A stretch of DNA of 39,901 nucleotides from Chloroflexota bacterium. GTDB taxonomy: Bacteria > Chloroflexota > Dehalococcoidia > Lucifugimonadales > Australimonadaceae. This document shows positions 2,858-4,197 of the stretch, in pieces. Both the position numbers and the translations under genes were made by a program. The notes beneath the pieces were generated by a model. The model ran no database searches. It was given only the letters and a program-made list of their open reading frames with translations, and was not told where the DNA came from. The stretch lies in contig JAPPHT010000044.1 in NCBI GenBank assembly GCA_028874795.1, positions 30,643-70,543 of the forward strand. Direction: 5' to 3'. Position 1 is the stretch's first letter; each line of letters opens with the position of its first letter.

Positions 2858-2907
2858 TTGATTGTTGCTTGGACTCCCTGCTATTCTCTTGCAAATCTTG
2901 GCAAGAG
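2858..2907 (+). promoter_or_regulatory. promoter and perfect inverted repeat upstream of the Fur-family gene
   Basis: TTGATT (2858-2863), an 18-bp spacer and TATTCT (2882-2887) with an extended -10 TG at 2879-2880 form a plausible promoter. Overlapping the -10 and predicted start is a perfect inverted repeat, CTCTTGC-N8-GCAAGAG (2886-2907). It ends 7 bp before the start codon at 2915. Fur-family repressors commonly autoregulate through such sites. The inner part, TTGC-N8-GCAA, resembles the nickel-responsive Nur box of Streptomyces as I recall it, with slightly different spacing. Confidence 0.6.
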
Positions 2908-2914
2908 CGATGCG

Positions 2915-3454
2915 ATGCAACACTACAGCGAATCGGTGGAAGCGATACGCGCAGCGGGACGCCGCGTCACGATACAACGTGTCGCCGTACTGGACGCCAT
3001 CCGCGAGATGGAAGGGCACGTAGCCGTCGACCAGGTTGCCGCCAGAGTGCGCGAGAAGCACCCCCAGATGGACCTCGCGACCGTCTACCGCACCGCAGGG
3101 CTGCTCGGCCGCCTGCACCTGCTCAACGAGGTCTCCATCGGCGGCGTGAGCCACTACGAGTACGCCTCTCCCGGCCAGCGGCACGGCCACATGGTCTGCG
3201 AGCACTGCGGCAGTACGATCCACGCCTCAACCACGCACCTCGACCAACTGCGCGAGGCGCTGCTGCGCGACACCGGCTTCGAGCTGCACCTGGAGCACCT
3301 CACCATGAGCGGGCTCTGCCGGGAATGCCGCCGGGACGAGGAACACTCGCACAGCGGCCACACTCACGCGCAAGCGCAACACCACGAACATCCCAGGGCG
3401 GGCGACGCAGGCATACGTCGGCACGCCCAAAGCGAAGGGGAGGGACTGCTATGA
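2915..3454 (+). CDS. Fur-family metal-responsive transcriptional regulator
   Basis: A 179-residue Fur-family repressor. An N-terminal winged helix (about 1-80, with the family segment DLATVYRTAGLL) is followed by the dimerisation and metal domain: RHGHMVCEHCG (H90, H92, C95, C98) and GLCRECRR (C135, C138), the usual structural-zinc Cys pairs. After residue 143 comes an unusual His-rich tail of about 27 residues (HSHSGHTH, QHHEHP). An in-frame ATG at 2825 would add 30 residues, but 2915 gives the normal family N-terminus and leaves the promoter and palindrome outside the gene. The stop overlaps the start of the Ni/Co transporter (ATGA), so the regulator probably senses the metal that transporter carries. 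Nickel (Nur-like) is my preferred reading; zinc or iron are not excluded. Confidence 0.88.
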   Translation: MQHYSESVEAIRAAGRRVTIQRVAVLDAIREMEGHVAVDQVAARVREKHPQMDLATVYRTAGLLGRLHLLNEVSIGGVSHYEYASPGQRHGHMVCEHCGSTIHASTTHLDQLREALLRDTGFELHLEHLTMSGLCRECRRDEEHSHSGHTHAQAQHHEHPRAGDAGIRRHAQSEGEGLL

Positions 3455-4197
3455 TCGAAGCCGGTTCCGGTGTATGGGCCATCCTGGCCATCGGGATGCT
3501 CCTGGGCCTGAAACACGCGACCGACGCGGACCACGTGGTGGCCGTCGCCACCTTTGCGACCGAGCACGGGAACGCCTGGCGCGGCCTGTGGGTCGGCGCC
3601 TCGTGGGGGCTCGGTCACACCACTCCACTGCTCGTTCTGGGCATCGTGATCCTCATCCTCAAAGAGGCGTTGCTCGACCGCTACGAGGCTGTCGCGCCGG
3701 TACTGGAGTTCGGCGTCGGAATCATGCTCGTACTCCTGGGAGCGCAGGTCTTCTACAAGCTACGACGGGGCTCACTGCACGCGCACGTACACGAACATCA
3801 GGGCCAGGCGCACGCGCACGTGCACGCGACGCACCGCGAGGGCAGCGAGCCGGGCAACGGCAACGGCCTGCACGAGGCCCTGCGCCCGCAGTTCCGCCTC
3901 AAGTCTTACGGCGTCGGCATCGTACACGGCCTCGCCGGGAGCGCAGCCGTGATGCTGGTGCTGCTACCCCAGATAGACGTTTTCTGGGTGGGACTGGGCT
4001 ACCTCCTGTTGTTCGGCGTCGGGACAGTGGCCTCCATGGGCGTCATCACGATCATCCTTGGAGTGCCGTTCGCGGTCATGTCACAGGCGCGGCGGTGGTA
4101 CCAGGCCGTCGCGGGAGTCGCGGGTGCGGCGAGCCTGCTGTTCGGCGCCGCGCTCATGGTGGAGATAGCGACGGGCATGACGGTCATCCCGTTCTAG
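3451..4197 (+). CDS. NiCoT/UreH-like nickel or cobalt transporter
   Basis: A 248-residue polytopic membrane protein of the nickel/cobalt transporter superfamily. The diagnostic motif is in the first helix region: LKHATDADHVVAV (H22, D25, D27, H28), matching the HAxDADH signature needed for Ni/Co transport. About six hydrophobic segments are visible. The loop at 110-128 is dense in His (HAHVHEH, AHAHVHATH) and likely binds metal on one face of the membrane. The ATG at 3451 overlaps the stop of the Fur-family gene in an ATGA arrangement, with AGGGGAGGG just upstream, so the two are translationally coupled. Which metal is moved cannot be decided here; no urease, hydrogenase or cobalamin gene is in the window, although the methylmalonyl-CoA mutase at 13887 needs B12. 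Confidence 0.85.
   Translation: MIEAGSGVWAILAIGMLLGLKHATDADHVVAVATFATEHGNAWRGLWVGASWGLGHTTPLLVLGIVILILKEALLDRYEAVAPVLEFGVGIMLVLLGAQVFYKLRRGSLHAHVHEHQGQAHAHVHATHREGSEPGNGNGLHEALRPQFRLKSYGVGIVHGLAGSAAVMLVLLPQIDVFWVGLGYLLLFGVGTVASMGVITIILGVPFAVMSQARRWYQAVAGVAGAASLLFGAALMVEIATGMTVIPF

Follow-up and report, generated by a model that had tools for sequence, protein, structure and literature searches.

A conserved inverted repeat as the putative operator of a Fur-regulator operon, probably for nickel/cobalt uptake, in Dehalococcoidia

The window, a stretch of 39,901 nucleotides from a Dehalococcoidia genome (G000:C87:30643-70543; assembly of 3.33 Mb in 90 contigs), carries a two-gene operon on the plus strand. 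The first gene (2915–3454) encodes a Fur-family regulator of 179 aa with two CxxC motifs and a C-terminal tail rich in His, identified by PF01475 and a predicted model. The second (3451–4197) encodes a 248 aa NicO-like transporter with a KHATDADH motif and a His-rich loop, identified from a PF03824 match under the cut-off, the HATDADH motif and an hhalign comparison. The ATG of the Fur gene is at 2915 and its stop codon at 3452–3454, overlapping the transporter ATG (3451–3453) as ATGA. An earlier note on this DNA had called the genes translationally fused; they overlap, but no fused protein is encoded. Two tandem, similar lipoprotein-like ORFs with no Pfam match (141–1436 and 1458–2747) lie upstream of the operon on the minus strand.

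The sequence at 2886–2907, CTCTTGCAAATCTTGGCAAGAG, ends 7 nt 5′ of the Fur gene and is, as the earlier note had reported, a perfect CTCTTGC-N8-GCAAGAG palindrome with 7-bp arms around an N8 spacer. Within it lies the core TTGCAAATCTTGGCAA (2889–2904), delimited by its conservation beside the Fur start, which reads as TTGCAA-N4-TTGCAA with the 12th position mismatched. A -10-like hexamer, TATTCT (2882–2887, plus strand), shares bases with the left arm of the palindrome next to the core, and a weak -35-like TTGATT, often TTGACA in relatives, is found 18 bp before it (2858–2863, plus strand). A Shine-Dalgarno-like AAGAG (2903–2907, plus strand) is inside the right arm, 7 nt before the ATG.

The palindrome alone is unremarkable and no rarer than chance geometry: the window contained seven perfect palindromes with 7-bp arms and an N8 spacer, against a mean of 4.95 and a largest value of 10 in 40 first-order Markov simulations. 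The genome-wide operator search that had been suggested for this genome gave no excess of sites over control patterns. With up to three mismatches, the palindrome pattern had 132 forward matches against 186 for the reversed control pattern; the core pattern TTGCRANNNNTYGCAA with up to one mismatch had 8 against 7. Exact YTGCRANNNNTYGCAR was found twice against seven times for the control, and neither match was the window operon, where the core has one mismatch. A multi-site regulon in this genome was therefore rejected. One extra site (L039) precedes an ORF for a Pro-rich, lipoprotein-like product; relatives did not confirm it, and the same 16-mer lies inside an ORF in G009. In three genomes of the same family (G006, G012 and G015), the sole exact YTGCRANNNNTYGCAR was the promoter of the Fur-transporter operon; these single-site genomes and the lack of excess here are both compatible with a one-operon regulon. 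The palindrome is thus called an operator because of the conservation of its core and its placement.

The transporter was present in 69 of 118 relatives, and a Fur gene was directly upstream of it in 19 of the 29 relatives' loci that were examined. TGC-N8-GCA was read by eye beside the Fur start in 18 of those 19 loci, the other (L033) being a one-base variant. At the ten Fur-less loci, no TGC-N8-GCA was found within 200 bp upstream of the transporter, with only 26 bp available for L020. A named set of 80 loci, which overlaps the 29, was also tabulated; the Fur/box table leaves out 21 of them, mostly from other phyla and none with a Fur profile match, as well as L055, which lacked upstream sequence. 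The box accompanied 24 of 25 Fur-adjacent but only 2 of 33 Fur-less loci of the transporter among the 58 Chloroflexota loci (Fisher p = 6e-13), which supports the earlier placement of an operator over the start region of this operon. The closest named matches of the window transporter were in Chloroflexi, SAR202 and Dehalococcoidia MAGs.

One of the two matches at Fur-less loci (L087) is probably due to chance. The other (L082, in G028) is convincing, the box standing before the transporter gene itself, just behind a TTGACA-N17-TAGAAT promoter. In the same genome, a Fur-ZnuA-ATPase-permease cluster (L162, G028:C37:20500-27500) directly precedes the boxed NicO gene. This gene has a promoter of its own and a TTGCGAATGTTCGCAG box. 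A different repeat, ATGATACTAATGTATCAT, was seen upstream of the Fur-less NicO genes L071, L072, L074 and L077; it resembles the Zur-type repeat. L073 and L081 lack the left arm, and the right arm may be a -10 hexamer, so we make no claim for it; it could be a second kind of metalloregulator site or belong to a promoter. A same-genus genome, G001 (one contig, 96% complete), was without the transporter and without a close Fur orthologue at E ≤ 1e-25, as if both had been lost together.

The distance from the end of the core to the Fur start was 5–14 bp in the boxed named loci with a clear start. A free search, made without a shuffled control, found a promoter with at least 8 of 12 matches in 49 of 66 boxed loci, and in 32 of those 49 the -10 ended 4–6 bp 5′ of the core. 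Since the -10 ends just before the core in many boxed loci, transcription most likely starts within the core, so that a repressor bound there would block initiation. The outer CTC/GAG pairs were about as frequent in the 66 boxed loci as expected from column composition, and the full arms are a local feature rather than a conserved palindrome. Antisense ORFs set aside, no neighbour besides Fur was common to more than 12 of 59 loci. A riboswitch at the transporter was also considered and rejected; the sole Rfam match in 14 scanned loci was a tRNA.

The Fur clade was then surveyed across the class. A profile made from 24 Fur orthologues found matches at E ≤ 1e-25 in 236 of the 294 genomes of the class. 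The 88 loci examined comprised 27 of the first 30 (three from the window's own genus were dropped), one from the same-order genome G035, and 60 taken down the ranking among the matches listed, with several matches skipped. A locus was counted as linked when no more than about 2.9 kb separated the Fur start from an importer gene in the same direction, and 57 of the 88 were linked. The importers were 16 CbiM/NikM (ECF) proteins, 17 GIDW-type NicO proteins, four short NicO proteins, one canonical NiCoT and 19 ZnuA-type ABC systems. Importer metal was taken throughout this survey from the family name by homology, and 38 of the 57 are Ni/Co-type because of the homology of the CbiM/NikM, NicO and NiCoT families. 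All five CbiM representatives exceeded the Pfam cut-off, and two of the five passed the NCBIfam 'cobalt transporter CbiM' models. The canonical NiCoT (L207) exceeded the PF03824 and TIGR00802 cut-offs, while two GIDW-type proteins were weakly NicO, under the cut-offs. An ABC binding protein (L210) was over the cut-off of PF01297 (ZnuA) and under that of every specific Zn or Mn model it matched.

Of the 57 linked loci, 40 had a box scoring at least 11 of 12, a threshold chosen after the scores were known; the 31 unlinked Fur homologues and the 431 control windows yielded one such box each. These figures include L262, which was moved by hand to the linked group once its genes had been inspected (its ZnuA family was confirmed); before the move they were 39/56 and 2/32. 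By importer, the box was present in 13/16 ECF, 8/17 GIDW-type, 3/4 short NicO, 1/1 canonical NiCoT and 15/19 ABC loci; the 17 linked loci below threshold included 9 of the 17 GIDW-type. In two unlinked loci (L221 and L252), less than 900 bp follow the Fur gene, and a linked importer could have been missed there. The unlinked boxed homologue (L279, in G165) is a Fur of this clade with a perfect box, TTGCAACTATTTGCAA; no importer was recognised over the 2.5 kb downstream of it. TGC-N8-GCA was present in 42 of the 57 linked upstream regions, against 1–3 of 57 for each of the spacings N5–N7 and N9–N13. N4 (22/57) and N14 (31/57) were also frequent; we attribute this to a GCA that follows the ribosome-binding site and a TGC that precedes the core.

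The window regulator scored 80.4 bits against PF01475 (cut-off 23.1), placing it in the Fur superfamily, and its best sequence matches among solved structures were Fur and PerR. Its predicted model has the Fur fold, with a Fur-Mn-DNA complex as the top structure match (Z 14.2); against Nur, the comparison gave Z 11.3 and rmsd 3.5 over 129 aligned residues. As far as a predicted model goes, the comparison confirms the fold and does not favour Nur over other Fur-family proteins. H35 was invariant in the 57 linked members, and E72, H90, H92 and the four Cys were invariant in the 56 that are not cut there. In the same 56, position 82 was E in 43 and H in 13, and position 128 was H in 54. The H35/E82/H90/H92 set of the window protein is one that we take to be like that of Fur. 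Position 128 aligns with a His of Nur and is Arg in the PerR, the Bacillus Fur and the window genome's own Zur-like paralogues that were compared. Of the 31 unlinked homologues, 12 kept E72 and 30 kept H128; E72 therefore goes with linkage, and H128 marks the wider clade. Among the 24 aligned proteins, only close relatives share the His-rich tail. Nur was placed on a long branch near the ECF-linked proteins in a FastTree tree of Fur proteins rooted at the midpoint, which was not counted as evidence. A fourth Fur paralogue of the window genome (L008, G000:C2:21832-22128) has a degenerate metal site (SPLNHLTC), and a Rieske-domain protein is encoded in the same locus.

The HAxDADH motif is the signature of NiCoT permeases and is present in the transporter, where HATDADH was invariant in 16 of 16 aligned proteins. 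This motif and a local profile match are the features shared with the HoxN/NixA-type NiCoT permeases; 95 columns align to the canonical NiCoT with an hhalign probability of 94%. The window protein differs in being shorter, in aligning over those N-terminal columns only, and in scoring under the cut-offs of both PF03824 (23.1 bits against 27.7) and TIGR00802 (19.9 against 333.05), and we refer to it as NicO-like.

In Nur, the M-site consists of His 33, 86, 88 and 90 and the Ni-site of His 70, 72 and 126. The Streptomyces coelicolor protein (PDB 3eyy) is like the window regulator in belonging to the Fur family, in its link to metal uptake and in the TTGCAA half-site. Equivalents of His33, 88, 90 and 126 are kept as H35, H90, H92 and H128, whereas the window protein has no equivalent of His86 and has E72, S74 and H128 in the columns of His70, 72 and 126. 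The His72 column is variable in the linked members, with His in 6 of 57. The review PMC7055735, in the part available, names Nur as the Fur-family nickel sensor, gives its M-site four His and its Ni-site three, the latter a possible crystal artefact, and has it repress nikABCDE and sodF. The Nur consensus is tTGCaa-N5-ttGCAA, and its action on sodN is only indirect (PMC3919588, in excerpt). Here, TGC-N9-GCA was found in only 3 of the 57 linked upstream regions, against 42 with TGC-N8-GCA. The resemblance of the core to a Nur box, suggested earlier, therefore extends to the half-site but not to the spacing, which is N4 in place of N5. The genes behind the regulator also differ, being NicO, NiCoT, ECF and ZnuA-type importers rather than the nikABCDE genes under Nur.

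NikR belongs to a protein family unrelated to Fur, and NikR regulons are similar in that one repressor accompanies varied nickel importers across lineages. The passages seen of PMC2667541 and PMC545781 tie NikR to NikABCDE, NikMNQO or NiCoT according to lineage, and its long operator in E. coli is GTATGA-N16-TCATAC (PMC7055735, same part). The predicted Desulfovibrio Zur box, ATGCAACnnnGTTGCAT in the passages seen of PMC545781, shares the TGCAA half-site, and ZnuA-type ABC neighbours are found in a third of the linked loci. It differs in having TGC-N9-GCA where N8 is found here, most linked importers here are of Ni/Co type, and the window genome keeps separate ZnuA loci. As the half-site is common to the Nur and predicted Desulfovibrio Zur boxes, the box does not name the metal. 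No description of a Fur-family Ni/Co regulator in Chloroflexota was found among the titles and abstract openings of the openly licensed PMC papers covered by the searches.

Likely users of nickel or cobalt were sought in the 16 genomes (G000–G015) of the window genome's own family. Ni-SOD, LarA, CobN and CbiC were each found in 0 of 16, and there was no full-length urease and no NiFe-hydrogenase match over the cut-off. Matches to the urease profile over the cut-off in G006, G008, G009, G011 and G012 covered only 42–54 of 121 positions, in long ORFs, and were not counted; G010 had two NiFe-hydrogenase matches under the cut-off. None of these six markers of nickel enzymes or B12 synthesis was convincingly found as a reason for the pump in this family, and among the markers searched no Ni or Co user was identified there. 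Outside the family, Ni-SOD was found in 90 of 102 relatives and was not associated with the transporter (51/56 with it, 39/46 without it; p = 0.37). No box of at least 11/12 was found from −300 to +100 of the Ni-SOD domains of 12 relatives; one (L283) has such a box further in. G016 has a Ni-SOD, no NicO match and a Fur of this clade before a ZnuA-type ABC operon, as if the ABC system were supplying nickel, a suggestive case that we read from gene content.

Two further Fur-family genes of the window genome (L005, G000:C89:41512-41856, and L006, G000:C31:28549-28893) both have a ZnuA-family neighbour, whose product contains long loops rich in His and Glu. Upstream of both Fur genes is a repeat, TTGATACTNNGTATTGAC (as TTGATACTCCGTATTGAC or TTGATACTAAGTATTGAC), unlike the window box, and these are probably two zinc-uptake loci. 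An imperfect TTGATACTNNGTATTGAC-like repeat was also found near the zur gene of G028. The window operon has neither this repeat nor a ZnuA neighbour, the two features that mark Zur in this lineage.

On these sequence comparisons, the core would be the operator of an autoregulated Fur-family repressor of Ni/Co uptake, similar to Nur in its way of working and distinct from it as a protein, a reading to which we give a probability of about 0.6. A Nur-like way of working is plausible because the same Fur clade precedes canonical NiCoT and CbiM/NikM genes. The Nur-like nickel unit of the earlier note thus survives as a mode of action, while residues and spacing show that the regulator is not Nur and no convincing nickel enzyme was found among those searched in the family. 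When metal is replete, a metal-loaded Fur dimer would bind TTGCAA-N4-TTGCAA at the promoter/start region and block RNA polymerase, silencing both its own gene and the NicO-like importer coupled to it; this negative feedback may extend no further than the window operon. Across the Dehalococcoidia, the Fur clade would keep itself and its operator, with a varying importer behind. The H128 shared with Nur and the separate zinc-type loci of the window genome speak for this reading. Against it stand the 19 ZnuA-type importers, the transporter scores under the family cut-offs, the 17 linked loci below the box threshold, the missing association of transporter and Ni-SOD outside the family, and the want of an identified Ni or Co user within it. 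What the comparisons show is sequence, conservation and linkage; from these we infer binding and repression, which way the metal is carried, and that the metal sensed is nickel and/or cobalt.

Zinc is the serious rival, though an unlikely one. Under it, the regulator would be a further Zur-like repressor of zinc importers, and the NicO-like pumps would carry zinc or several metals. The 19 ZnuA-type ABC systems among the 57 linked importers fit this, as do the boxed G028 transporter just downstream of a Fur-ZnuA-ATPase-permease cluster, the TGCAA half-site common to the Desulfovibrio Zur boxes predicted in that part of PMC545781, and the lack of an identified Ni or Co user in the family. Set against them are the 38 linked importers from Ni/Co-type families and the different repeat at the window genome's two other Fur genes that adjoin ZnuA-family genes. 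A Mn/Fe-responsive Fur, Mur or PerR-type repressor that took over a broad-specificity importer is less likely still: the closest solved structures by sequence (Fur and PerR) and by fold (the Fur-Mn-DNA complex) and the presumably Fur-like H35/E82/H90/H92 set would suit it, but linked members retain E72 and H128, position 128 is Arg in the PerR and Fur compared, and the linked genes are mostly Ni/Co-type importers. That the repeat is a chance palindrome or mere ribosome-binding region with no operator role, as its unexceptional count in the window and the AAGAG in its right arm might suggest, is very improbable given that both half-sites and their spacing are conserved and accompany the Fur gene.

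Most likely the operator is real and the mechanism ordinary, namely Fur-family autorepression. The unexpected part is the reach, with one regulator-operator cassette before several importer types across the class. The chances appear evenly balanced that this is an undescribed, non-Nur Fur sensor of Ni/Co, with H35, E72, E or H82, H90, H92 and H128 as candidate ligands, TTGCAA-N4-TTGCAA as its site, and a portable cassette behind which importers of at least five types have replaced one another. If so, it would be a second, class-wide Fur-family nickel sensor with a different operator spacing and metal site, and would bear on how Fur proteins change their metal and DNA specificity. It would likewise offer a way into the study of Ni/Co uptake by SAR202 and other Dehalococcoidia, represented here mostly by metagenome-assembled genomes, and would allow substrates to be predicted for the poorly annotated NicO-like and ZnuA-like importers found behind the box.
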